Below are positions 10,391 to 61,368 of a stretch of 64,000 nt of DNA, piece by piece; position 1 is the stretch's first letter, and each line of letters starts with the position of its first letter. The position numbers were made by a program, and so were the translations under genes. Source of the DNA: Actinacidiphila rubida (GTDB lineage: Bacteria > Actinomycetota > Actinomycetes > Streptomycetales > Streptomycetaceae). Under the pieces are notes generated by a model. It saw only the letters and a list, made by a program, of their open reading frames with translations, was not told the DNA's origin and did no database searches. Location: assembly GCF_900110255.1 (NCBI RefSeq), contig NZ_FODD01000007.1:186001-250000 (forward strand), given 5' to 3'.

Positions 10391-11746
10391 CTACTCGCCG
10401 ATCTTGTCCTTCACCTGGGCCTTGACGTTGGACCAGGCCTTGTCGGCGGAGGTGCCGCGCTGCTCCATGTCCAGCAGGCCGTTCTTGGTGATGATGTCCT
10501 TCACCGTGCCGTCGTCCGGGCCGATGGGCGCGGGCTGGATGCTCTGCGCGGTGGTGGCGAAGATCTTGCCGGTCGGCGCCGGCTTGCCGGGGGCGCCGAA
10601 GTAGTCGTTCGTGGTGTTCTGCACCGCCGGGTCGGACAGACCGCCCTTGTTCGACGGGATGTTGCCGAACTTCTGGAAGATCTTGACCTCCTGCGCGGCG
10701 CCGGTCAGCCACTGCGCCAGCGCCGCGGCCTCGGCCGGGTGCTTGCTGGCCTTGGTCACCGCGAGGAACGAACCGCCCCAGTTGCCCGCCTGCGGCGGCT
10801 GCGCGATGTCCCACTTGCCCTTGTTCGCCGGGCCGGAGTTGGTCTGCACGAGGCCGACCATCCAGCTCGGGCAGGCGACGGTGGCGAACTTGCCGGTCTT
10901 GAAGGCGGCCGACCAGGTGTTGTTCGAGTCGAACTGCTGGAGCTTGGCCGTCAGACCCTCCTTGACCGCCTGGGCGGACAGGTCCCAGGCGGTCTTGACG
11001 CCCGGGCTGGAGTCGTAGACCAGCTTGCCGTCCTGGTCGGAGTACTGCGTCGGCTGGCTGGACAGGACCGCGTTGAACAGGCCGCCGGCCGAGTCGGTGA
11101 AGGCCACGCCGCTCGGCGCCTTCGCCTTGAACTGCTCGCCGACCTGGACGAACTTCGACCAGTCACCGTTCCACAGCGCCGCGACCTGGTCCGGGTCGGT
11201 CGGCAGGCCGGCCTGCTTGAAGAAGTCGGACCGGTAGCAGATCGCCGTCGGGCCGATGTCCGTGCCCACGCCGATGACCTGGCCGGAGGCGGTGGTGGCC
11301 TGCTTCTCCTTGTAGGAGACCCAGTCGTCGGCGCTGAAGCCCTTGACCGTCTTGAAGTCGAGGAACTTCGAGGCCAGCGCGGGCTGGATCGCCTCGGCGA
11401 TGTAGCCGACCTCGATCGCCTGGATGTCGTCGAGGCCGCTGTTCTGCTGCAGGTGCAGCTTGAGGGAGTCCCAGTACTGCTGGCCGTCGGTGACGTTGTC
11501 CTCGACGATCTTGATGTTCGGGTGCAGGGCCTCGTACTCCGAGAAGAGCTTCGCCCCCGTCTTGTCGTTGTATCCGAACTCGTTGAAGTCACCGATGTGC
11601 AGCGTGATCTGCTCCGAGGAGGACGACTTCCCGCCCTTGGAGCCGTTGTTGTCACTGCTGCTGCAGCCGGTGATCAGCGTCGCGCAGGTCGCGAGACCCG
11701 CGACCGCGATGACAGCGGCCTTGCGGGTTCTGCCTGAAGTGCGCAT
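10391..11746 (-). CDS. cebE: Cellobiose-binding lipoprotein CebE
   Basis: A 451-residue family 1 solute-binding protein. The start at 11746 follows an AAGGAGAG ribosome site; the open frame runs further upstream but through the promoter. The signal peptide ends in the lipobox LITGC with C28 as the lipidated Cys, followed by a flexible SSSDNNGSKGGKSSSS tether. The mature protein has the usual two-lobe pattern (HIGDFNEFGYNDKTG near the start, and NTWSAAFKTGKFATVACPSWM in the middle). It captures cellobiose and cellotriose outside the membrane for CebFG. It is preceded by a TTGACA promoter and a perfect CebR operator. Confidence 0.93.
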   Translation of the reverse strand: MRTSGRTRKAAVIAVAGLATCATLITGCSSSDNNGSKGGKSSSSEQITLHIGDFNEFGYNDKTGAKLFSEYEALHPNIKIVEDNVTDGQQYWDSLKLHLQQNSGLDDIQAIEVGYIAEAIQPALASKFLDFKTVKGFSADDWVSYKEKQATTASGQVIGVGTDIGPTAICYRSDFFKQAGLPTDPDQVAALWNGDWSKFVQVGEQFKAKAPSGVAFTDSAGGLFNAVLSSQPTQYSDQDGKLVYDSSPGVKTAWDLSAQAVKEGLTAKLQQFDSNNTWSAAFKTGKFATVACPSWMVGLVQTNSGPANKGKWDIAQPPQAGNWGGSFLAVTKASKHPAEAAALAQWLTGAAQEVKIFQKFGNIPSNKGGLSDPAVQNTTNDYFGAPGKPAPTGKIFATTAQSIQPAPIGPDDGTVKDIITKNGLLDMEQRGTSADKAWSNVKAQVKDKIGE

Positions 11747-11831
11747 TCCACTCTCCTTGTCAGGGTGGGTCGGCGTGCGGGTGGTGCGGTCCCCGGGTAC
11801 GTGCTCGCGGGTGCCCTGTGAAGGGCGTGTG

Positions 11832-11845
11832 TGGGAGCGCTCCCA
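11832..11845 (-). promoter_or_regulatory. CebR operator of the cebEFG-bglC operon
   Basis: The perfect palindrome TGGGAGCGCTCCCA, identical to the published Streptomyces CebR box. It lies about 15 bases downstream of the -10 element and 86 bases before the cebE start, so a bound repressor would block transcription start or elongation until cellobiose releases it. Confidence 0.95.
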
Positions 11846-11860
11846 CGTAGGCTTTCCGGA

Positions 11861-11890
11861 ACATTCACGCCTGGGAGGGGTCAGTGTCAA
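11861..11890 (-). promoter_or_regulatory. cebE promoter
   Basis: On the minus strand a perfect -35 TTGACA (11890-11885) is followed after 18 bases by GAATGT (11866-11861). The CebR box lies just beyond. The -10 is imperfect but shares the xAxxxT pattern of the GH48 promoter of the same regulon. Confidence 0.7.
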
Positions 11891-12001
11891 GATGTGAAGT
11901 CCATTTCGTTGCCGGAACGTGTCCGGGGCGGGGCGGGCGTTACTTCTTGAACGAACGCCGGGGAAACCGCGGGCCGACCGGCCTGCCTGGGACTTGTACG
12001 G

Positions 12002-12015
12002 TGGGAGCGCTCTCA
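12002..12015 (+). promoter_or_regulatory. CebR operator in front of cebR
   Basis: TGGGAGCGCTCTCA, one mismatch from the perfect box, 74 bases before the cebR start. A possible -10 TACGGT (11997-12002) abuts it, so CebR probably limits its own synthesis. Confidence 0.85.
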
Positions 12016-12089
12016 CGCGCTCTCTGACGCGGGAAGAAGCGGGCGCTAAGGTGGCGCGCAGCGGGAAGCAGCGGGAGGCGGAAGTGGCC

Positions 12090-13112
12090 ATGAACGGGCG
12101 GCACAGCGGACGGCCCACCCTGGAGGAGGTGGCCGTGCGCGCCGGGGTCGGGCGGGGCACCGTCTCGCGCGTCATCAACGGCTCACCCCGGGTGAGCGAT
12201 CGGGCCAAGGCCGCCGTCGAGGCCGCCATCGCCGAGCTCGGCTACGTGCCCAACCGGGCCGCCCGGGCGCTGGCCGGCAACCGTACCGACGCCATCGCGC
12301 TCGTCATCCCCGAACCCGAGACCCGGCTCTTCGCCGAGCCGTACTTCTCGGACATCATCCGCGGGATCGGCGCCGAACTCGCCGACACCGACATGCAGTT
12401 GCTGCTCACCCTGATCCGCACGCCCAAGGAGCGCTCGCGCTTCGCCCAGTACCTCGCCGCGCACCGCGTCGACGGCGTGCTGCTGGTCTCCGTCCACGAG
12501 GACGACCCGCTGCCCGACCTGCTGGAGCAGCTGGAGATGCCCGCGGTGCTCAACGGCCGCCGCAGCGACCTGGAGTCGGTGTCGTACGTCGACGCGGACA
12601 ACGTCGGCGGCGCCCGGGCCGCGGTCTCCCATCTGCTGGCCCGCGGCCGCCGCCGGGTCGCCACCATCACCGGGCCGACCGACATGTACGTGGCGCGCTG
12701 CCGGCTCGACGGCTACCGGCAGGCGGTCGAGGCGGCCGGCCTCGGCGTCGACGACGGCCTGGTCGCCGGCGGCGACTTCACCGAGGAGGGCGGCCGCCGG
12801 GCCATGCGCGAGCTGCTGGCCCGCCGCCCCGACGTCGACGGCGTGTTCGCCGCGTCCGACCTCATGGCGGCGGGCGCCCGCGCGGTGCTGCGCGAGGAGG
12901 GCCGCCAGGTGCCGGACGACGTCGCCCTGATCGGCTTCGAGGACTCCGCGATCGCCCGCCACATGGACCCTGCGCTCACCAGCGTCCGCCAGCCCACCGA
13001 GGAGATGGGCCGCACCATGGCCCGCGTCCTGCTGGAGGAGATCGCCGAACGCGCCTCCGTCCGGCGCCACGTGGTCCTGGCCACCGAACTCGTCCAGCGC
13101 GACTCCGTCTGA
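12090..13112 (+). CDS. cebR: Cellobiose-responsive LacI-family repressor CebR
   Basis: A 340-residue protein. The start at the ATG at 12090 is favoured by GGGAGGCGG eight bases upstream; a GTG two codons earlier is an alternative. The N-terminal LacI helix-turn-helix is PTLEEVAVRAGVGRGTVSRV followed by INGSPRVSDRAKAAVEAAI and the hinge helix PNRAARALAGNRTDAIALV. The rest is a periplasmic-binding-protein-like effector domain (NGRRSDLESVSYVDADN, GGRRAMRELLARRPDVDGVF, ALIGFEDSAIARHMDPALTS). By family knowledge it binds the 14-bp box and leaves it on binding cellobiose. It is divergent from cebE, and its boxes also precede the GH64, GH5 and GH48 genes. Confidence 0.95.
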   Translation: MNGRHSGRPTLEEVAVRAGVGRGTVSRVINGSPRVSDRAKAAVEAAIAELGYVPNRAARALAGNRTDAIALVIPEPETRLFAEPYFSDIIRGIGAELADTDMQLLLTLIRTPKERSRFAQYLAAHRVDGVLLVSVHEDDPLPDLLEQLEMPAVLNGRRSDLESVSYVDADNVGGARAAVSHLLARGRRRVATITGPTDMYVARCRLDGYRQAVEAAGLGVDDGLVAGGDFTEEGGRRAMRELLARRPDVDGVFAASDLMAAGARAVLREEGRQVPDDVALIGFEDSAIARHMDPALTSVRQPTEEMGRTMARVLLEEIAERASVRRHVVLATELVQRDSV

Positions 13113-13186
13113 CGCCCGCCCGCAGCGGAAACGGCCGCCCGCCCGCGTGGTGCCCGGGCGCGGAGCCGCGGCCCTAGGGTGGCGGG

Positions 13187-14143
13187 ATGAGCGACGAGGT
13201 GAGGGTGCCGCGCGGGGTGGGGCTGGCCGAGACGCTGCTCGACCTGGGCGTGCCCTACGCGGCGACGAACGGGGTGCTCGCGGCCGCCGAGAGGGTCGCC
13301 GGGGACGCCACCGCGCACGGGCAACTGGTCGGCGCTGTGCAGGAGTTCATTCGCGACATGGGGGAGGTCGGCGGCGGCCCCGGGGGCGGGCCGGCCCTCG
13401 GGCCCGACCTGGACGCGCGCGCCGCGCGGGCGGGCGCCGCCCCCGGGCCGTGGTTCGCGCTGCTGGTGCTGGCCGCGACCCGCCCGCACACCGCCGCGTA
13501 CCACCGCGCGCTGGGCGTGCCGGAGGAGGTCACCCGCAGGACGCTGGCCGACGTGGGCCGCCACATGGCCGTCCACGCGCGCCGCCACGGCACGCCCGGC
13601 CTCGCCAACACCTCATGGCTGGCACGGCACTTCCGCGGCGTGCTCGTCCAACTCGGCCGGCTCCAGTTCGAGCGGACCCGCCTCGGCGGCAGGACCGGGA
13701 CCGCGCTCGCCGCCGCCGGGGTCGCGGCGGGCCCCGGCACCCGCGCGCTCGGCCTGCACATCCCCGACTTCACCGGCCCGCTGGATCCCGCCGCGTGCGA
13801 CGCCTCGTTCGACCGGGCCCGCGCGTTCTTCGCGCGCCACCACCCGGACGAGCCCGCCGCGATCGTCACCTGCCACTCCTGGCTGCTGGACCCGCAGCTC
13901 GCGGAGTACCTCCCCCGGGACTCCCGCATCCTCGCGTTCCAGCGCCGTTTCACCGCGGTGTGGGCCGGCCCGGAGCCGGACGACGCGACCACCCTCGGGT
14001 TCGTCTTCGGCGACCCCGCGGCGGACCCCTCCGCGCTCGTGGCGCGCAGCGCGCTGGAGCGGGCCGTGCTGGCCCACCTGGCGGCCGGCCGGCACTGGAC
14101 CGGTGGCACGGGCTGGCTGCCGCTGCCGCCCGGAGCGGCGTAG
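13187..14143 (+). CDS. N-acyltransferase with GNAT-like C-terminal domain
   Basis: A 318-residue cytosolic protein. The C-terminal half carries the block LGLHIPDFTGPLDPAACDAS and the downstream TCHSWLLDPQLAEYLPRDSR-ILAFQRRF typical of the paired NAT_N/GNAT_C acyltransferase family, which transfers acyl groups from acyl-CoA or a carrier. The N-terminal half is helical with an Ala/Gly-rich linker at about residues 55-85. The substrate is unknown. It lies 74 bases after cebR on the same strand without a visible CebR box, and converges on the DUF2087 gene with a 34-base gap. No evidence links it to cellulose use. Confidence 0.7.
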   Translation: MSDEVRVPRGVGLAETLLDLGVPYAATNGVLAAAERVAGDATAHGQLVGAVQEFIRDMGEVGGGPGGGPALGPDLDARAARAGAAPGPWFALLVLAATRPHTAAYHRALGVPEEVTRRTLADVGRHMAVHARRHGTPGLANTSWLARHFRGVLVQLGRLQFERTRLGGRTGTALAAAGVAAGPGTRALGLHIPDFTGPLDPAACDASFDRARAFFARHHPDEPAAIVTCHSWLLDPQLAEYLPRDSRILAFQRRFTAVWAGPEPDDATTLGFVFGDPAADPSALVARSALERAVLAHLAAGRHWTGGTGWLPLPPGAA

Positions 14144-50080: not shown

Positions 50081-51862
50081 TCAGCCGTCCAGCCCGAAGC
50101 CGATCGGAAACAGGTCGGCTCCCGGGTCGTCGGCCCGGGGGATCGCCACCGGGAGGCGCCCCGCCGGCCGCACCGCGCCCGCGAGGACCCGCGCGGCCGC
50201 CCGCATCGACACGTCCGTCCAGCCGTACGTCGCCAACGACGCGGCCACCGGCGGAAGGAACGCCGCGTCGTACGGATTGCGGACCGCCACCGTCACCACC
50301 GGGACCCCCGTCGCCACCAGCGCCGCGACCAGCGCGACCTGCTCCGGCGTGTCCGCCGTGACATTGCAGGTCGTGACCACCACCGCGTCCGCACCGTCGC
50401 GCGCAGCGGCCACCGCCCCGCCGATGGCCCCCGCGTCCGGCGCGCGACCGGTCGGCAGCGCCCGCGCCGGCACGCCCAGCGCCGTCAACTCCCGGGCCAG
50501 CACCGCCGTCGGGGGCCCTCCGACGCCGGAAGGCGCCGCCGGATCCGCGCCCACCACCAGGACCCGTCGCTCCGTGCCCCGCGCCAACGGCACCACGCCC
50601 GAGGCGTTCACCAGCAGCGTCACACCGCGCCCGGTGACGGCGTCCGCGACCTCACGGTGCTCCCGCGCGCCCACCACCTCGTCCACCGCCGCGGGCGTGG
50701 TGAACGCCTGCTCGAACACACCCCTGCGCAGCTTCATCCTCAGCACCCGCGCCACCGACTCCGCCAGCCGCTCCCGCGACACCTCACCGGAGCGCACCGC
50801 CGCCAGCACCGCCCCGAACGCCACGTCCAGCCGCGGCGGATCGAGCAACTGGTCCGCACCGGCCTTCAGCGCCAGCACCGGCACCCGGTCGTCGCCGTGC
50901 CGCTCGCGCACACCCCGCATGTCCAGCGCGTCGGTCACCACCACCCCGTCGTAGCCGAGCCGTTCCCGCAGCAGGCCCGTGAGGACCGCGTGCGACAGCG
51001 TCGCCGGATCGCCCGAGTCGTCGATCCCCGGCACCAGGATGTGCGCGGTCATCACAGAGTCGACGCCCGCCGCGATCGCCGCCCGGAACGGCGGCGCGTC
51101 GACCCGCTCCCACTCCCGCGGGCCGTGCGTGATCACGGGCAGGGCGACGTGGCTGTCGGTGACGGTGTCGCCGTGGCCCGGGAAGTGCTTCGCCGACGTC
51201 GCGACCCCCGCCGCCTGATAGCCCCTGATCTGCGCCGCCACCAGCGCCGCGACCGCCGACGGGTCCGCGCCGAACGCCCGCACCCCGATCACCGGGTTCG
51301 CCGGACTCACGTTCACGTCGCACACCGGGGCGTAGTTCTGGTTGATCCCCATCGCCGCCAGCTCCGCGCCGACGATCCGCGCGGCGGCGAACGCGTCGTC
51401 CGTGCTGCCGTTCGCGCCCAGCGCCATGCCACCGCCGAACGACGTCACCGGCGCCCCGATCCGCTCGACCGCGCCCTGCTCCTGATCCACCGCGACCAGC
51501 AGCGGCACCCGGGCCCCGGCGGCGAGCCCGGCGCGCTGGATGCCGTTGGACAGGTCCGCGATCTGGTGCGGATCACGGGTGTTGTGGGCCCACGCGAAGT
51601 ACACGACACCGCCCAGGTGGTAGCGGGCGACCAGCTCCGCGGCGTTGTCGACCCCGTTGTCGACCCGGTTCGCGGCCACGTCCGCGGGGTCCGGGTCGGA
51701 AGCCGACGTACCGAACACCCGCGCCACGAAGAGCTGCCCGACCATCTCCTCCAGCGTCATCCGCCCGATCAGGGCGCGGACCGCCGCCCGCTCGTCGGCG
51801 CCGCTGGGAGAGCGCGGCGCGGCGGTGGGCAGGGGCGGGAACCCGGGGCGGGGACGTTGCAT
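50081..51862 (-). CDS. GH3 beta-N-acetylglucosaminidase (NagZ-like)
   Basis: A 593-residue protein after GGAAGGAG. It has no clear signal peptide, so it is probably cytosolic. The NagZ-type catalytic loop KHFPGHGDTVTDSH is present, as is nucleophile D311 in VVVTDALDMRGV. A C-terminal alpha/beta domain (from about residue 400) follows, longer than in Gram-negative NagZ. It would release GlcNAc from chitobiose or muropeptides. It complements the GH18 and GH20 enzymes; a role in chitin or cell-wall recycling is inferred. Convergent with the ABC exporter. Confidence 0.88.
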   Translation of the reverse strand: MQRPRPGFPPLPTAAPRSPSGADERAAVRALIGRMTLEEMVGQLFVARVFGTSASDPDPADVAANRVDNGVDNAAELVARYHLGGVVYFAWAHNTRDPHQIADLSNGIQRAGLAAGARVPLLVAVDQEQGAVERIGAPVTSFGGGMALGANGSTDDAFAAARIVGAELAAMGINQNYAPVCDVNVSPANPVIGVRAFGADPSAVAALVAAQIRGYQAAGVATSAKHFPGHGDTVTDSHVALPVITHGPREWERVDAPPFRAAIAAGVDSVMTAHILVPGIDDSGDPATLSHAVLTGLLRERLGYDGVVVTDALDMRGVRERHGDDRVPVLALKAGADQLLDPPRLDVAFGAVLAAVRSGEVSRERLAESVARVLRMKLRRGVFEQAFTTPAAVDEVVGAREHREVADAVTGRGVTLLVNASGVVPLARGTERRVLVVGADPAAPSGVGGPPTAVLARELTALGVPARALPTGRAPDAGAIGGAVAAARDGADAVVVTTCNVTADTPEQVALVAALVATGVPVVTVAVRNPYDAAFLPPVAASLATYGWTDVSMRAAARVLAGAVRPAGRLPVAIPRADDPGADLFPIGFGLDG

Positions 51863-53695: not shown

Positions 53696-54493
53696 TCAGG
53701 CCGAGTCGGCCAGCAGCCGGGTCAGGTGGTCCCGGGCGGGGCCGAGCAGGCCGGGCAGCTCCGCGGCATCCGGGTACCAGCGCTTCTCGTACTCCCAGCA
53801 CAGCCAGCCGTCCCAGTAGGCACGGCTGAGCACCTCGACGGTCTCCGCCAGCGGCAGCACACCGGCGCCCAGCGGCAGCGGCGTGGTGTCCGCGGCCGAG
53901 GCGATGTCCTTGACCTGCACGTAGCCCAGGTACGGGGCCAGCGCCCGGAAGCTGACCTGCGGCTGCTCACCGGCGAGCCACGTGTGCATGACGTCCCAGA
54001 TGGCGCCCGCCGCCCGGTGGCCGACCCGTCCCAGCACCCGTGCCACGTCGGCGCCCGAACGGTGGGAGTCATGAGTCTCCAGCAGCACCCGTACTCCCAG
54101 GCTCTCGGCGCGTTCGGCCGCCGTGGCCAGACGCCTCGTGGCCAGCGCATCGGCCTGCTCGGCGGGCTGGTCGCCGCCGCCGGGGAACACCCGGACGTAG
54201 GAGGCGCCGAGGTCCGCGGCCAGCGTCAGCGCGGCGTCGATCTCCTCCAGTACCGGCCCGTCGTCGCCGGGTGCGGCGACCTTCGGATACGCGGCGACGG
54301 TGAGCACCTCGATCCCGGCCTTGCCGAACTGGCTTGCCACGTCGGCGCGTTCGGAGGCCGAAAGGCCGGTGTGGACCGGGCCTTCGTCACTGGCGCGCAG
54401 TTCGACGCCGTGGTAGCCGTGCTCTGCCGCCAGCCGGACGACCTGGTCGATCGCCAGGGCGGGGACCCCGAGGGTGGAGAAGGCGAGTCTCAT
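53696..54493 (-). CDS. TIM-barrel sugar isomerase/epimerase-like protein
   Basis: A 265-residue protein of the xylose-isomerase-like (AP endonuclease family 2) fold. Visible metal-site candidates: E in VRVLLETHDSHRSG, D and H in AGAIWDVMHTWLAGE, and K in YVQVKDIASAAD, with WLCWEYEKRW near the end. The start at 54493 has no ribosome site but stands seven bases after a textbook -10, so translation is probably leaderless. The substrate is unknown; relatives act on inosose, keto-sugars or sugar phosphates. Confidence 0.85.
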   Translation of the reverse strand: MRLAFSTLGVPALAIDQVVRLAAEHGYHGVELRASDEGPVHTGLSASERADVASQFGKAGIEVLTVAAYPKVAAPGDDGPVLEEIDAALTLAADLGASYVRVFPGGGDQPAEQADALATRRLATAAERAESLGVRVLLETHDSHRSGADVARVLGRVGHRAAGAIWDVMHTWLAGEQPQVSFRALAPYLGYVQVKDIASAADTTPLPLGAGVLPLAETVEVLSRAYWDGWLCWEYEKRWYPDAAELPGLLGPARDHLTRLLADSA

Positions 54494-54500
54494 TCGCTCG

Positions 54501-54529
54501 ACGCTAGGCACCGCCCGGTGCCGGGTCAA
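54501..54529 (-). promoter_or_regulatory. Leaderless promoter of the TIM-barrel gene
   Basis: Minus strand: TTGACC (54529-54524), spacer exactly 17, TAGCGT (54506-54501), then seven bases to the A of the ATG at 54493. Confidence 0.75.
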
Positions 54530-56385: not shown

Positions 56386-57489
56386 TCAGGAACGGGTCTT
56401 CGGCGGTGCGGTCGAGGCCCTGACCATGAGTTCGGTGGCGATCGTGGCGACACCGCCGGGCGGGGAGGACTGCCGGCCCATGACGAGCCGGCCCGCCCGC
56501 GCGCCCGCTTCCTGCAGCGGAATGCGGACGGTGGTCAGCGCGGGCGACGCGTCGACGCTGAACGGCAGGTCGTCGAACCCGGCGACCGAGATGTCGCCGG
56601 GAATGTTCAGCCCGCGGTCCCGCAGCGCCGCGCACACGCCGAGCGCGACCGTGTCGTTGGCCGCGACTATGGCCGTCACGTCCGGTTCCCTGCGCAGCAG
56701 TTCGAGTGCCGCGTCGTAGCCGGAGGCGCGGTCGTACCCGCCGTGCACCGTCAGCCGCGACGCATCGCCGCCGGCCGTGCCGTCCGCTCCTGCCGCTGTC
56801 CGCGGTCCCAGTCCGTAGGCGGCCAGGGCCGCTCGGTGGCCCTCCAACCGGTGCCGGGTGGTGCTGCGCTCGAGGGGGCCGGTCACGCAGCCGATCTTCC
56901 GGTGGCCGAGGGAGAGCAGGTGCTCGGTGAGCCGCCGGGCGCCGCCGCGGTTGTCGAAGGCGACCGTCGTCACCCCCGGCGACTCGTCGGGGAACGTCAG
57001 TGGCGGCCGCCCGCAGAGCACCACCGCCGTGCCGGACGCCGCGAGCCGGGCCAGTCGCGCGGTGACCGCGGCGGTGTGGGCCTCGTCCTCCACCGCCCCG
57101 CCGGTGAGCACCACGCCAGCCGCCCGCTGCCGCTCGAGGAGCGTCAGATAGGTCAGTTCGGCCTCCGGAGAGCCCCCGGTGTTGCAGACCACGGCGAGCT
57201 TGCCGCCGGCGGGTCCGGATCCCCCCGCGCCGATCTCGCTCTGGAGGGCGCTGGCGATGAGCCCGAAGAACGGGTCGGCGACGTCGTTGACGAGGACCCC
57301 GACCAGGTCGGAGGTGGCGGCCGCGAGGGCGCGGGCCTGACCGTTGACGACGTAGTCCAGTTCTTCCACCGCGCGCTGCACGCGCTCGCGGGTGCTGCCC
57401 GCCACCGGGTAGTTGCCGTTGAGGACGCGCGAGACCGTCGCCGAGGACACCCCGGCGCGTGCGGCGACGTCGGCCAGAGTCACTGCCAT
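56386..57489 (-). CDS. LacI-family repressor of the adjacent catabolic cassette
   Basis: A 367-residue protein after GAGAGGAA. The N-terminal HTH is VTLADVAARAGVSSATVSRV followed by LNGNYPVAGSTRERVQRAVE and hinge VVNGQARALAAATSDLVGVL. The ligand domain follows with VNDVADPFFGLIASALQSEI, AIVAANDTVALGVCAALRDR and DISVAGFDDLPFSVDASPAL. It is divergent from a three-gene operon across 373 bases containing two operators. By family it senses a sugar or derivative; which one is unknown. Confidence 0.93.
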   Translation of the reverse strand: MAVTLADVAARAGVSSATVSRVLNGNYPVAGSTRERVQRAVEELDYVVNGQARALAAATSDLVGVLVNDVADPFFGLIASALQSEIGAGGSGPAGGKLAVVCNTGGSPEAELTYLTLLERQRAAGVVLTGGAVEDEAHTAAVTARLARLAASGTAVVLCGRPPLTFPDESPGVTTVAFDNRGGARRLTEHLLSLGHRKIGCVTGPLERSTTRHRLEGHRAALAAYGLGPRTAAGADGTAGGDASRLTVHGGYDRASGYDAALELLRREPDVTAIVAANDTVALGVCAALRDRGLNIPGDISVAGFDDLPFSVDASPALTTVRIPLQEAGARAGRLVMGRQSSPPGGVATIATELMVRASTAPPKTRS

Positions 57490-57721
57490 CGGGGTCGGGT
57501 TCCTCTCGTGCTCGCGGCCGCGCCGGTGCGGGTGCCGGTGGTCGTGGTGGTGGTGCGGACGGCTCCCGCTCCCGCGGGCCGCCCCGTGTAGCGGCTCATG
57601 CTCTCACTGACGCGCCACGAGCGGGAGCGGTGCCCGCCCCGTTGTGGGGAAGGGCTCATCGCGGGGGTGCACGAGAGGGAAATCAGAGGACGGTGCCGAC
57701 CGGAGAGCATGAGTACGCGTC

Positions 57722-57735
57722 GGTAAGCGCTTTCC
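57722..57735. promoter_or_regulatory. LacI-type operator, upstream copy
   Basis: GGTAAGCGCTTTCC, a near-perfect palindrome with the AAGCGCTT core. Its centre is 76 bases from that of the second copy. Confidence 0.7.
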
Positions 57736-57758
57736 GCTGCTTATCTCATGATGCCATC

Positions 57759-57788
57759 TTGTCGCTCCTGCCGCCTGCGGGCTAGCTT
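57759..57788 (+). promoter_or_regulatory. Promoter of the dehydrogenase-DUF993-isomerase cassette
   Basis: TTGTCG (57759-57764), spacer 18, TAGCTT (57783-57788). The downstream operator at 57798 would cover the start site. Confidence 0.5.
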
Positions 57789-57797
57789 TGCCTGAGA

Positions 57798-57811
57798 AGA
57801 AAGCGCTTGCT
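57798..57811. promoter_or_regulatory. LacI-type operator, downstream copy
   Basis: AGAAAGCGCTTGCT with the AAGCGCTT core at 57801-57808, just after the predicted transcription start. Together with the copy at 57722 it brackets the promoter. Confidence 0.75.
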
Positions 57812-57862
57812 TCCCGTGGGATGCGCACCCTTCCCCGTGATCGACAGCCGAGGAGAGACCCT

Positions 57863-59014
57863 GTGACACGCAGAACAGTCCGGATCGCCATGAACGGCGT
57901 CACCGGCCGCATGGGATACCGGCAGCATCTGGTGAGGTCGCTGCTCCGGCTGCGCGAGGAGGGCGGCCTCGATCTGGGCGACGGCACCACGCTCTGGCCG
58001 GAACCGGTGCTCGTCGGCCGGCGCGAGCACGCGCTGAGGGCGCTCGCCGAGCGCCACGGCCTGGAGCACTGGAGCACCGACCTCGACGCCGTGCTCGCCG
58101 ACCCGTCGATCGAGATCTACTTCGACGCCCAGGTCACCTCGGCGCGCGAGGAGGCGGTGAAGAAGGCGATCGCCGCGGGCAAGCACGTCTACTGCGAGAA
58201 GCCCACGGGCACCACCCTCGCCGGGGCGGTCGAACTCGCCCGCCTCGCCGACGCGGCCGGGATCAAGCACGGCGTGGTCCAGGACAAGTTGTTCCTGCCC
58301 GGCCTGCTCAAGTTGCGCCGGCTGGTGGAGGGCGGCTTCTTCGGCCGGATCCTGTCCGTGCGCGGCGAGTTCGGCTACTGGGTGTTCGAGGGCGACTGGC
58401 AGAGCGCCCAGCGCCCGTCGTGGAACTACCGTGCCCAGGACGGCGGCGGCATCGTCGTCGACATGTTCCCGCACTGGGAGTACGTGCTGCACGAACTGTT
58501 CGGCCGGGTGCGCAGCGTGCAGGCGCTCACCGCCACGCACATCCCGCAGCGCTGGGACGAACAGGGCAAGCCCTACGACGCGACGGCCGACGACGCCGCG
58601 TACGGCATCTTCGAACTCGAGGGCGGGGCGATCGCGCAGATCAACTCCTCGTGGGCGGTCCGCGTCAACCGCGACGAACTGGTCGAGTTCCAGGTGGACG
58701 GCACCCACGGCTCGGCCGTCGCAGGGCTGCGCAACTGCCGTGTCCAGCACCGCTCGGCCACGCCCAAGCCGGTGTGGAACCCCGACCTGCCCGCCACCGA
58801 GGCGTTCCGCTCCCAGTGGCAGGAGGTGCCGGACAACGGCGAGTTCGACAACGGGTTCAAGGCCCAGTGGGAACTGTTCCTGCGCCACGTGGTGCTCGAC
58901 GCGCCGTGGCGCTGGGACCTGGGCGCCGGCGCCCGGGGAGTGCAGCTCGCCGAACTCGGCCTCAAGTCCGCGGCCGAGGGACGCCGCATCGAGGTCCCGG
59001 AGCTGTCGCTGTGA
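57863..59014 (+). CDS. Gfo/Idh/MocA-family NAD(P)-dependent sugar dehydrogenase
   Basis: A 383-residue protein from the GTG at 57863, six bases after GAGGAGA. The N-terminal Rossmann fold begins VRIAMNGVTGRMGYRQHL and contains the family lysine in HVYCEKPTGT; the C-terminal alpha/beta domain includes GGGIVVDMFPHWEYVLHELF, with the His in the usual catalytic position. The NGVTGRMG loop is unlike the common GxGxxG of the family. It should oxidise a sugar, polyol or glycoside hydroxyl. It heads a three-gene operon with 4-base overlaps and is controlled by the divergent LacI protein. Confidence 0.88.
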   Translation: MTRRTVRIAMNGVTGRMGYRQHLVRSLLRLREEGGLDLGDGTTLWPEPVLVGRREHALRALAERHGLEHWSTDLDAVLADPSIEIYFDAQVTSAREEAVKKAIAAGKHVYCEKPTGTTLAGAVELARLADAAGIKHGVVQDKLFLPGLLKLRRLVEGGFFGRILSVRGEFGYWVFEGDWQSAQRPSWNYRAQDGGGIVVDMFPHWEYVLHELFGRVRSVQALTATHIPQRWDEQGKPYDATADDAAYGIFELEGGAIAQINSSWAVRVNRDELVEFQVDGTHGSAVAGLRNCRVQHRSATPKPVWNPDLPATEAFRSQWQEVPDNGEFDNGFKAQWELFLRHVVLDAPWRWDLGAGARGVQLAELGLKSAAEGRRIEVPELSL

Positions 59015-60165
59015 GCATCGTGCTGCCCCAGGACACCGGCGAAACCCGCACCTATGTGCCGAGATCCGAACCCGTCACCTATGTGACGGATCTGCCGCTG
59101 CGCAGCCGCGTCGTGTACTCGGCGGCGCATGTCGTGGCCGACCCGCTGCGGACCGCCGCGGACGCCCCGGCCGTCGTCGGCTGGGACGCCACCCTCGCCT
59201 TCCGCCGCCACCTGTGGGCACACGGCCTGGGCGTGGCCGAGGCGATGGACACCGCTCAGCGAGGCATGGGCCTGGACTGGGCGGGCGCCGCGGAGCTGAT
59301 CCGCCGCTCGTCCGCGGAGGCCCGGTCCGTGGGCGGACGCATCGCCTGCGGTGTCGGCACCGACCAGCTCACCGTGCCCGCGGCGACCGCCGACGAGGTG
59401 AGGGCGGCGTACGAGGAGCAGCTCGCCGTCGTGGAGGCCGCCGGATCGCAGGCCGTGCTGATGGCCTCCCGCGCGCTGGCGGCCGTGGCCAAGGGTCCCG
59501 ACGACTACCTGGAGGTGTACGGGCACCTGCTGCGCCAGGCCGCGGAGCCGGTGATCCTCCACTGGCTGGGGCCCATGTTCGACCCCGCCCTCGCCGGCTA
59601 CTGGGGCAGCGACGACCTCGACGCCGCGACGGAGACGTTCCTCCAGGTCGTCGCCGCGCACCCGGACAAGGTCGACGGCGTGAAGATCTCCCTGCTCGAC
59701 GCGGGGCGCGAGGTGGCGCTGAGGCGCCGCCTGCCGCAGGGGGTCCGCTGCTACACCGGTGACGACTTCCACTACCCGGAGCTGATCGAGGGCGACGAGC
59801 AGGGCTTCAGCCACGCCCTGCTCGGCATCTTCGACCCCCTCGCTCCGGTCGCTGCGGCCGCCGTCAGCACCCTGGACACGGGCGACGCCGCGGGTTTCCG
59901 CGGTCTGCTCGACCCCACGGTGGAGCTGTCCCGGCACCTGTTCGGGGCACCGACCCGCTTCTACAAGACCGGTGTGGTCCTCCTCGCCTGGCTGGCCGGC
60001 CACCAGGACCACTTCACGATGGTCGGCGGCCTGCAGTCGGCGCGGTCCCTGCCGCACCTGGCGCGGGCCTATGAACTGGCCGACCGCGTCGGGCTGTTTC
60101 CCGACCCCGCGCTCGCGGCCTCGCGCATGCGCGGCCTTCTCGCCGTGTACGGGGTGGACGCATGA
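59011..60165 (+). CDS. DUF993 protein (DapA-like barrel)
   Basis: A 384-residue cytosolic protein. The GTG at 59011 overlaps the previous stop (GTGA). Visible stretches: SRVVYSAAHVVADPLRTAAD, GWDATLAFRRHLWAHGLGVA, AMDTAQRGMGLDWAGAAELI, PVILHWLGPMFDPALAGYWG, KVDGVKISLLDAGREVALRR with a Lys in the place of the Schiff-base lysine of DapA/NAL aldolases, and RCYTGDDFHYPELIEGDEQG. This is the DUF993 family, related to dihydrodipicolinate synthase. No activity is established to my knowledge; a retro-aldol or lyase step is a reasonable guess. Confidence 0.8.
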   Translation: MSIVLPQDTGETRTYVPRSEPVTYVTDLPLRSRVVYSAAHVVADPLRTAADAPAVVGWDATLAFRRHLWAHGLGVAEAMDTAQRGMGLDWAGAAELIRRSSAEARSVGGRIACGVGTDQLTVPAATADEVRAAYEEQLAVVEAAGSQAVLMASRALAAVAKGPDDYLEVYGHLLRQAAEPVILHWLGPMFDPALAGYWGSDDLDAATETFLQVVAAHPDKVDGVKISLLDAGREVALRRRLPQGVRCYTGDDFHYPELIEGDEQGFSHALLGIFDPLAPVAAAAVSTLDTGDAAGFRGLLDPTVELSRHLFGAPTRFYKTGVVLLAWLAGHQDHFTMVGGLQSARSLPHLARAYELADRVGLFPDPALAASRMRGLLAVYGVDA

Positions 60166-61007
60166 CCGGCATCACGGGCAATGGCCTGGCCCGGTTCAGC
60201 CTCAACCAGGAGACCATCCGGCAGTGGCCACTGCCCGCGCTCGCCGACGGGTGCGCTGCCGCCGGTGTCACCCGCGTCGGCCTGTGGCGGGCGCCGGTCC
60301 AGGAGTACGGCGTCGAGCGGGCCGCGGCCCTGATGCGTGACAGCGGGCTGAGCGTCACCTCGCTGTGCCGCGGCGGCTTCTTCACGGCCGTGGAGCCCGC
60401 GGCGCGCGCGGCGGCGCTGGACGACAACCGGGCGGCCGTCGACGAGGCCGCGGCGCTCGGCGCCCCGACCCTCCTGCTGGTCTCCGGCGGCCTGGCCGAC
60501 GGTGAGCGCGACCTCGTGCCGGCCCGGCAGCGGGTCGCCGACGCCGTCGCCGAACTCGCGCCCTACGCGGCCGCGCGCGGGGTGCGGCTGGCGATCGAGC
60601 CGCTGCACCCGATGTACGCGTCGGACCGCTGCGTCGTCTCCACGCTCGGACAGGCCCTCGACATCGCCGAGCGGTTCCCCGCAGAGCAGGTCGGCGTCGT
60701 CGTCGACACCTATCACTTGTGGTGGGACGAGCGGGTCCCGGCCGGGATCGTCCGCGCCGGTGAGGGCGGCCGGATCGCGTGCTTCCAGGTGGCCGACTGG
60801 GTCACGCCGCTGCCCGAAGGGGTGCTCGTGGGCCGCGGTCAGCTCGGCGACGGGTGCGTGGACCTGCGCGGATTCCGCGAGCAGGTCGACGCCGCGGGCT
60901 ATCGCGGCGACATCGAGGTGGAGATCTTCAACGCCGGTCTGTGGGCGCGTGACGGCCGGGAGGTGCTCGCGGAGGTCGTCGACCGCTACCGCCGACACGT
61001 GCTCTGA
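60162..61007 (+). CDS. Sugar phosphate isomerase/epimerase-like protein
   Basis: A 281-residue xylose-isomerase-like barrel. The ATG at 60162 overlaps the DUF993 stop (ATGA). Metal-binding candidates: E in LAIEPLHPMYASDR, D and H in VGVVVDTYHLWWDE, and E in GYRGDIEVEIFNAGLWAR. Members of this family isomerise or epimerise keto-sugars or inososes. As the third gene of the cassette it would act on the product of the dehydrogenase or DUF993 protein. Confidence 0.88.
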   Translation: MTGITGNGLARFSLNQETIRQWPLPALADGCAAAGVTRVGLWRAPVQEYGVERAAALMRDSGLSVTSLCRGGFFTAVEPAARAAALDDNRAAVDEAAALGAPTLLLVSGGLADGERDLVPARQRVADAVAELAPYAAARGVRLAIEPLHPMYASDRCVVSTLGQALDIAERFPAEQVGVVVDTYHLWWDERVPAGIVRAGEGGRIACFQVADWVTPLPEGVLVGRGQLGDGCVDLRGFREQVDAAGYRGDIEVEIFNAGLWARDGREVLAEVVDRYRRHVL

Positions 61008-61368
61008 AAGACCTCCGGAAAATTTCCGGTTCCGGCGTACAACCCTTCCCGCCGGTGGCCGGTCGTACATGGCATCAAGGCTCCCGGGAGGGGTTCGGGG
61101 AGCTGGAGGGTAAGTACGCCCGAGGGGGGCTTCGGGGGTATGGGGGGAACGCGAAGAGGGGTCCGGCATCGCGCCGGACCCCTCTTCGCGTTCGCAGGCG
61201 GGCGTCCGGCCACCGCCCCAGGGGACCCGTCCGGGGCCGCTCCCGGCTGAGGGTCCGCCTCGGCTCGGAGCGGTTGTCCACAGGCCCGCGCTCGGGCCCC
61301 GCGGGCTGTCCGCGGCTGACGGTACCTTCGGAACCGACGACCGCCGGAGCCGCGAAGGGAGGCCGGGG
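61008..61368. other. Gap between the cassette and the helicase gene
   Basis: These 361 bases contain a 21-bp-stem terminator at 61147-61193 and the helicase promoter region. No gene is apparent. Confidence 0.6.
61147..61193 (+). terminator. Very strong terminator hairpin
   Basis: Perfect 21-bp arms (61147-61167 and 61173-61193) around a five-base loop. It ends the LacI-controlled operon 140 bases after its last stop. Confidence 0.9.

Follow-up and report, generated by a model that had tools for sequence, protein, structure and literature searches.

A 64,000-nt window of the Actinacidiphila rubida genome (contig NZ_FODD01000007.1, positions 186,001 to 250,000) carries a LacI-family repressor gene divergent from three overlapping genes, which encode a Gfo/Idh/MocA dehydrogenase (Gfo), a protein of the domain of unknown function DUF993 and a xylose isomerase-like enzyme (Table 1). 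The evidence supports the three-enzyme unit as a compact catabolic-type operon with a dedicated repressor, and the reading that we favor, at a probability of about 0.42, is that the trio would oxidise and isomerise a polyol or sugar-acid skeleton before a Lys225-dependent retro-aldol cleavage. In this scheme, whose reaction steps, substrate class, lysine role and inducer we infer throughout, LacI would hold the operon off until a sugar-like inducer arrives, Gfo would turn an alcohol group of its substrate, a polyol, cyclitol or sugar acid, into a ketone, and the IolI-like isomerase would shift or epimerise the keto group. DUF993 would then form a Schiff base with the ketone at Lys225 and cleave a C–C bond to give small (C3) products. 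In many lineages these might be passed on as hydroxypyruvate or tartronate semialdehyde and so reach glycerate and glycerate kinase. The support comes from the DapA fold and invariant Lys225 of DUF993, the colinear trio and the correlated distances of its proteins, the EKP/D/H residue set of Gfo, the IolI-like isomerase, and the glycerate kinase, iolD and KdgD neighbours. The same three reactions had been proposed in an earlier sequence-only reading, of which the catabolic-type operon stood and was joined by neighbourhoods that fit inositol or sugar-acid use, whereas the cleavage and the substrate are carried forward here as predictions.

The DUF993 protein matched PF06187, its only Pfam family, over its full length (604 bits against a cut-off of 24; residues 3–382 on profile positions 1–382), and no Pfam match to dihydrodipicolinate synthase (DHDPS) was found at 0.001. 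Among PDB sequences it recovered a single chain, the orthologue 4dnh (57% identity), and a profile search of the PDB added only two further rows, both at chance level. Its predicted model (mean pLDDT 90.1) superposed on 4dnh with a Z of 52.3 and on dihydrodipicolinate synthases with a Z of about 30 over 286 residues at about 13% identity; the VIA comparison with DHDPS 3flu_B gave Z 30.8 and a root-mean-square deviation of 2.3 over 286 aligned residues, and the best DHDPS row in Foldseek stood at 5.1e-10. DapA uses a catalytic Lys and a Tyr. A DapA-like Lys had been remarked on in the sequence-only reading, and Lys225, which lies in predicted strand 6 and is aligned with the DapA catalytic Lys by profile comparison, was invariant in 178/178 rows. 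His184, at the strand-5 position of the DapA Tyr in the profile alignment, was likewise invariant (178/178 rows), and Asp80, Thr81, Ala82 and Arg84 were each present in 118/118 DUF993 sequences; these counts omit L182 and L183, where DUF993 was unusable, and treat near-identical records separately. Plain DapA-family membership was rejected, because the GxxGE motif is changed and so is the Tyr of strand 5; DUF993 looks like a Schiff-base enzyme of DapA fold that is no ordinary member of that family.

We then considered how the genes are distributed. DUF993 was present in 113/150 Streptomycetaceae genomes, 120/394 genomes of the class and 19/246 of the phylum. The loci compared were the best 80 of 573 matches in the genome collection, all from Streptomyces or close kin (Streptomyces-type loci), 60 actinobacterial loci outside Streptomycetaceae, picked for diversity from 84 matching genomes, four further loci outside the family (G008, G050, G204 and G225) and 19 control regions lying 600 kb away in 19 genomes, a twentieth region not existing, with two of the 19 from the genomes of those four loci; in unannotated loci, genes were called by a GC3 rule and blast against our own reference list, so that genes may be missed. 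Gfo, DUF993 and the isomerase were all matched in 80/80 Streptomyces-type loci, the best Gfo piece in L034 covering residues 1–199 only and ending 2 kb upstream. Outside Streptomycetaceae the trio was present in 60/60 loci and colinear in 59; in the remaining one (L226), Gfo is separated from the other two and sits next to an NMT1-type transporter. LacI was present in 52 of these 60 loci, and none of the four genes appeared in the 19 control regions. The co-occurrence of DUF993 with its partners, on which the sequence-only reading depended, was thus borne out. Across 79 loci outside the Streptomyces set, the distances between loci correlate from one protein of the trio to another (r = 0.78–0.80), a result that common ancestry can produce by itself. 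Separately, one Streptomycetaceae genome (G252, contigs C55 and C7, L174–L176) holds four DUF993 matches, one partial, in differing contexts, and split matches at G008 C1:379764-380957, G385 C1:750924-752067, G350 C1:2808929-2809991 and G267 C5:13820-14306 are possible pseudogenes or sequencing frameshifts.

Between LacI and Gfo, we found two 14-bp operators with a AAGCGCTT core, set 76 bp apart. This core occurs at four sites in the window, where shuffles predict 0.25, two of the four being at this cassette, and the extended operator form RGNAAGCGCTTNCY is found at just two places in the 9.0-Mb genome, both at the cassette; two is also the count for the reversed control pattern, and nine relatives hold 1 to 18 sites of RGNAAGCGCTTNCY. 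LacI, aligned from residue 1, was divergent from Gfo and less than 1.2 kb away in 68/80 Streptomyces-type loci, and a AAGCGCTT-type match was found in all 68 Streptomyces LacI–Gfo intergenic regions tested (two matches in 8, one in 60). With its predicted helix-turn-helix and a conserved palindromic operator adjoining the gene, LacI looks like a local repressor of the cassette, predicted to bind its own operators, and, since both RGNAAGCGCTTNCY sites of the genome lie at the cassette, apparently one with no transporter in its regulon. A transporter sharing the operator in this genome was rejected on the same count. The two operators and their spacing had been noted from the sequence as bracketing a promoter; the operators stood, but a sigma-70 pattern scan of the LacI–Gfo intergenic region found no promoter. 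A dedicated LacI with a two-site regulon would make the inducer directly testable.

Elsewhere, the gene neighbourhoods point to polyols and sugar acids. In family f81, the LacI–Gfo–DUF993–isomerase set diverges from an iol operon, and iolD lies less than 10 kb from DUF993 in 17/18 genomes carrying DUF993; beside the set in L193, iolB, iolC and iolD exceeded their NCBIfam cut-offs, and an IolG-like gene scored 302.9 bits, short of its 355. On the same contig, iolD was found less than 40 kb from DUF993 in 23/36 Streptomycetaceae genomes, and the distance is 15.6 kb in G514 (family f8), the positions of the two genes being compared by eye in all these cases. Together with the finding that no characterised protein is closer to the isomerase than IolI, by profile or by fold, this linkage speaks for a cyclitol-specific variant. 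In it, the trio would act on a cyclitol, such as a stereoisomer of inositol; after its oxidation, the keto-cyclitol would be isomerised by the IolI-like enzyme, and DUF993 would open the ring by intramolecular retro-aldol cleavage, bypassing IolE/IolD. We consider this rather unlikely: a RecD-like helicase and citrate synthase intervene between the cassette and iolD in the seven Streptomycetaceae regions opened, and shared ancestry of the gene order could account for the linkage; in the A. rubida genome iolD sits on another contig (C47), with no iol gene in the 17 kb from the cassette to the contig end; no linkage was seen in families f79, f3 and f7, though the two genes there are mostly on different contigs; and a classical iol set adjoins the cassette, so that a bypass is not obviously needed.

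Sugar-acid and glycerate genes form a second group of neighbours. In family f79, KdgD lies 43–199 bp 3' of the isomerase in 10 loci, and across the 60 actinobacterial loci we counted KdgD in 10 (1/19 controls), a talarate/galactarate dehydratase homologue in 12 (1/19 controls) and glycerate kinase in 8 (0/19 controls), the last only 18 or 30 bp 3' of the isomerase in L212 and L215. Glycerate kinase also adjoins the trio in L113, L167, L178–L180 and Paracoccus pPAN1; the arrangement holds for G282, G247, G226 and Glaciihabitans, and a D-2-hydroxyacid dehydrogenase accompanies it in some cases. In the A. rubida genome the sole glycerate kinase is on another contig. UxaC, GH4, DUF2264 and D-2-hydroxyacid dehydrogenase occur near the trio in a few loci, and the transporters vary (Ugp-like, RbsA-like, NMT1-type, LIV/urea-like, tripartite tricarboxylate and MFS). 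As neighbours of the cassette, 29 Streptomyces-type loci carry an rbs-like operon, and 41 loci, the window included, carry a helicase gene; a ribose pathway was rejected, the rbs-like neighbour being taken as lineage synteny. In some alphaproteobacteria, an unusually long protein (about 470 residues) from the enolase superfamily is encoded inside or before the trio (L107 15172-16587, L115 9363-10796, L109 9396-10784), with a weak MR_MLE_C match in the two copies scanned and no PDB relative of the L107 copy at 1e-10.

The proteobacterial context, which we read from plasmids only, departs from this arrangement. Ten plasmid records from Sinorhizobium, Rhizobium, Paracoccus, Sagittula, Roseateles and Janthinobacterium carry an acyl-CoA dehydrogenase and a short-chain dehydrogenase/reductase (SDR) beside DUF993 in the place of Gfo (loci with this cluster: L106/L022, L108, L110, L119, L121, L118, L116, L023 and L025). 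Most of the ten also carry CoA transferase, hydratase, GMC oxidoreductase and aldo-keto reductases, and of the stretches shown, 7 include glycerate kinase and 8 include electron transfer flavoprotein (ETF) genes; a Caballeronia cluster with DUF993 has SDR, CoA transferase and hydratase. On Paraburkholderia caribensis plasmid 2 (L114), a CoA transferase lies near DUF993, and the gene directly before DUF993, in Gfo's place (11116-11940, annotated ThiF), belongs to the shikimate/quinate-dehydrogenase family (nearest PDB entry 4k28, E 4.9e-49; under curated cut-offs), so that its identification as an enoyl-CoA hydratase was rejected. A cyclitol-type dehydrogenase in place of Gfo leans toward cyclitols and led us to raise the cyclitol-specific variant slightly: members of this family oxidise cyclitol acids, but the family includes a 5-ketofructose reductase, and the gene was not found at any other locus examined. 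In two further loci, L120 (Streptomyces yangpuensis plasmid, 11998-13188) and L177 (G356, 9200 onward), DUF993 occurs without Gfo or isomerase, each copy adjoining polyketide synthase genes (by annotation in L120, by Pfam in L177) and a FAD-dependent monooxygenase gene that is similar in the two loci; both copies keep Lys225 and His184 and change the otherwise fixed sites F190W, G250S, D252T, A269G and G272P. The trio of the sequence-only reading is near-constant in the actinobacterial loci compared, but Gfo is swapped in several proteobacterial plasmids and the isomerase is missing in L120 and L177.

In Gfo, the NGVTGRMG nucleotide loop picked out earlier is present at residues 11–18, and the Lys113 of the EKP motif, Asp200, His204 and Gly52-Arg53 were invariant in 162/162 rows. 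The Gly-Arg follows strand 2, on which basis Gfo probably uses NADP. Its PDB orthologue is 3oqb (E 8.6e-155), the best match beyond orthologues is 6a3f (E 1.2e-14), which we take to be levoglucosan dehydrogenase, and its best NCBIfam matches, both weak, are levoglucosan dehydrogenase (67 bits against an equivalog cut-off of 650) and inositol dehydrogenase. Such matches fit the main rival explanation, an oxidation–elimination–hydration module that would cleave a glycosidic or ether bond by a non-hydrolytic route: Gfo would oxidise C3 of a glycoside or an O-methyl cyclitol, the TIM-barrel enzyme would eliminate the partner by beta-elimination, DUF993 would hydrate the enone (or eliminate) through a Schiff base, the keto sugar would be re-reduced, and each lineage would contribute genes that deal with the fragment set free. 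Neighbours that change from lineage to lineage (iol, uronate/hexarate, glycerate kinase, DUF2264, GH4) would suit variable aglycones, and this explanation accounts for them better than the retro-aldol reading does, but it suits the DapA-type fold less. Enzymes known to have the DapA fold use keto-acid substrates or cleave C–C bonds, and transporters of types that often serve small acids stand beside the trio (NMT1-type in 8/60 loci, LIV/urea-like in 6, tripartite tricarboxylate in two plasmids). Known systems of this kind also pair Gfo with xylose isomerase-like enzymes, but use two of these and a second oxidoreductase, according to the accessible part of PMC10628242; the cassette has one of each, with a further isomerase-like gene at 53696-54529 as a candidate second member. 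The shikimate/quinate-dehydrogenase-like gene of L114 lowered our estimate slightly, and we regard the module as unlikely, yet the strongest competitor of the retro-aldol reading.

Three solved orthologues of the isomerase, 7vpf, 3qc0 and 3ju2, have no assigned function. Its nearest characterised relative is IolI (1i60; profile E 2.4e-14, 18% identity), which was also the best fold match beyond orthologues (Z 30.3, the next at 27.9). Weak matches to hydroxypyruvate isomerase, IolO and QuiC recurred in 32/32 members scanned, and the isomerase scored far under all three cut-offs (32.8 bits against 353 for hydroxypyruvate isomerase TIGR03234). Among its many fold neighbours is UlaE (3cqj, Z 25.7), and several Arg are invariant in all three enzymes, which would suit an acid substrate. 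Both observations are compatible with DUF993 as a 3-keto-acid decarboxylase or other Schiff-base enzyme, on the logic of UlaD/UlaE, with Gfo making a beta-keto sugar acid, DUF993 decarboxylating it and the isomerase epimerising the ketose; we think this very improbable, since the DUF993 structure matches shown are DapA-family lyases and synthases and glycerate kinase would be left unexplained.

Several results weigh against the retro-aldol reading. Profile comparison of DUF993 with 14 DapA-family proteins from related genomes gave E = 3e-4 but a probability of only 39%. The strand-5 Tyr is invariant in those 14 sequences where DUF993 has His184, and after strand 2 DUF993 reads D80-T-A-Q-R-G in place of the DapA G-x-x-G-E turn, of which E46 is invariant and G45 nearly so in the 14 proteins; this turn was placed by secondary-structure order, the profile alignment beginning further on. 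Because DUF993 lacks both turn and Tyr, it is doubtful that its substrate is a 2-keto acid of the pyruvate type. The pooled sugar-acid and glycerate partners reached 22/60 loci against 2/19 controls (Fisher p = 0.044), with loci that are not phylogenetically independent. Genes 3' of the trio differ between lineages, some having hexarate, inositol or glycerate kinase genes and others none, which would not be expected if the product were always the same, and one glycerate-ending route everywhere was weakened as a candidate. The CoA and acyl-CoA genes of the variant (type-B) clusters are unaccounted for by the proposed scheme or by its rivals. The boldest extension, that DUF993 represents a new class of Schiff-base lyase opening keto-cyclitols or keto-uronates by retro-aldol cleavage with His in place of Tyr as base, in an oxidative cyclitol or sugar-acid pathway that would be widespread in Streptomyces, avoid the dehydratase and hydrolase steps of iol and end in glycerate, seems to us improbable.

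In the window, the layout noted earlier, with LacI divergent from three genes joined by GTGA and ATGA overlaps, was confirmed in coordinates and families, the overlaps falling at 59011-59014 (Gfo/DUF993) and 60162-60165 (DUF993/isomerase). The 21-bp-stem hairpin said to close the unit was likewise recovered as a perfect inverted repeat (arms 61147-61167 and 61173-61193); 61148-61200, nearly the whole hairpin, folds at -43.5 kcal/mol (z = -8.4), and no T-run follows 3' of it. The second AP_endonuc_2 gene has homologues in 46/80 Streptomyces-type loci (47 loci including the window), and its protein had no NCBIfam match at 1e-10. A glycoside hydrolase family 3 protein is encoded at 50081-51862 on the minus strand, with homologues near the cassette in 31 loci including the window.

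Table 1. Features of the cassette and its surroundings in the window.
Feature	Position	Strand	Remarks
LacI-family repressor	56386..57489	-	PF00356 E 5.9e-17, Peripla_BP_3 E 2.6e-30; divergent from Gfo
Operator 1, GGTAAGCGCTTTCC	57722..57735		One of the two RGNAAGCGCTTNCY sites in the 9.0-Mb genome
Operator 2, AGAAAGCGCTTGCT	57798..57811		Commonest form among relatives
Gfo/Idh/MocA dehydrogenase	57863..59014	+	PF01408/PF22725/PF02894
DUF993 protein, predicted Lys225 Schiff-base lyase	59011..60165	+	PF06187 E 1.4e-181
AP_endonuc_2 enzyme, xylose isomerase-like TIM barrel, IolI-like	60162..61007	+	PF01261 E 9.4e-41
Terminator-like perfect 21-bp hairpin, loop 5, no T-run	61147..61193	+	
Second AP_endonuc_2 protein, candidate accessory gene	53696..54529	-	PF01261 E 5.6e-37

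Assigning DUF993 would settle a domain of unknown function for which all three enzymes of the set have PDB orthologues, and would give many soil bacteria an added catabolic route. A literature search found no paper naming DUF993, PF06187 or IPR009334, within a coverage that leaves out most subscription papers, so that a function may be published; searches by the Sinorhizobium meliloti locus tags and PDB codes found no function for the orthologues, and in the part of PMC12542648 that was accessible the tags are mentioned only as a row group in an expression table. The earlier statement that DUF993 has no established activity agrees with this search, but structural data do exist, in the form of the 4dnh orthologue.

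Compared with known systems, DUF993 shares with DapA and N-acetylneuraminate lyase (PF00701) the (beta/alpha)8 fold, at a Z of about 30, and the position of the Schiff-base Lys, and differs in the D80-T-A-Q-R turn, in His184 for Tyr and in an identity of about 13%. In S. meliloti, 4dnh (SMc04132) and 3ju2/3qc0 (SMc04130), which have nearby locus tags, are orthologous to DUF993 (57%) and to the isomerase (47%), respectively, and these solved structures are titled hypothetical or sugar isomerase with function unassigned. Operons for the oxidation–elimination of levoglucosan and of C- and O-glycosides (LGDH–LgdB, CGE, AtOGE) likewise combine a dehydrogenase with xylose isomerase-like enzymes; the accessible part of PMC10628242 reports such modules for levoglucosan and flavonoid glycosides, and the operon described there has two isomerase-like enzymes, a second oxidoreductase and no DUF993, against one isomerase-like enzyme and one oxidoreductase in the cassette at 57863-61007. 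The iol operon shares with the cassette an IolG-superfamily dehydrogenase and an IolI-like isomerase, and is the adjoining locus in family f81 and in many Streptomycetaceae. The cassette itself contains none of iolB, iolC, iolD and iolE, and DUF993 is, to our knowledge, not part of the known iol inositol pathway.

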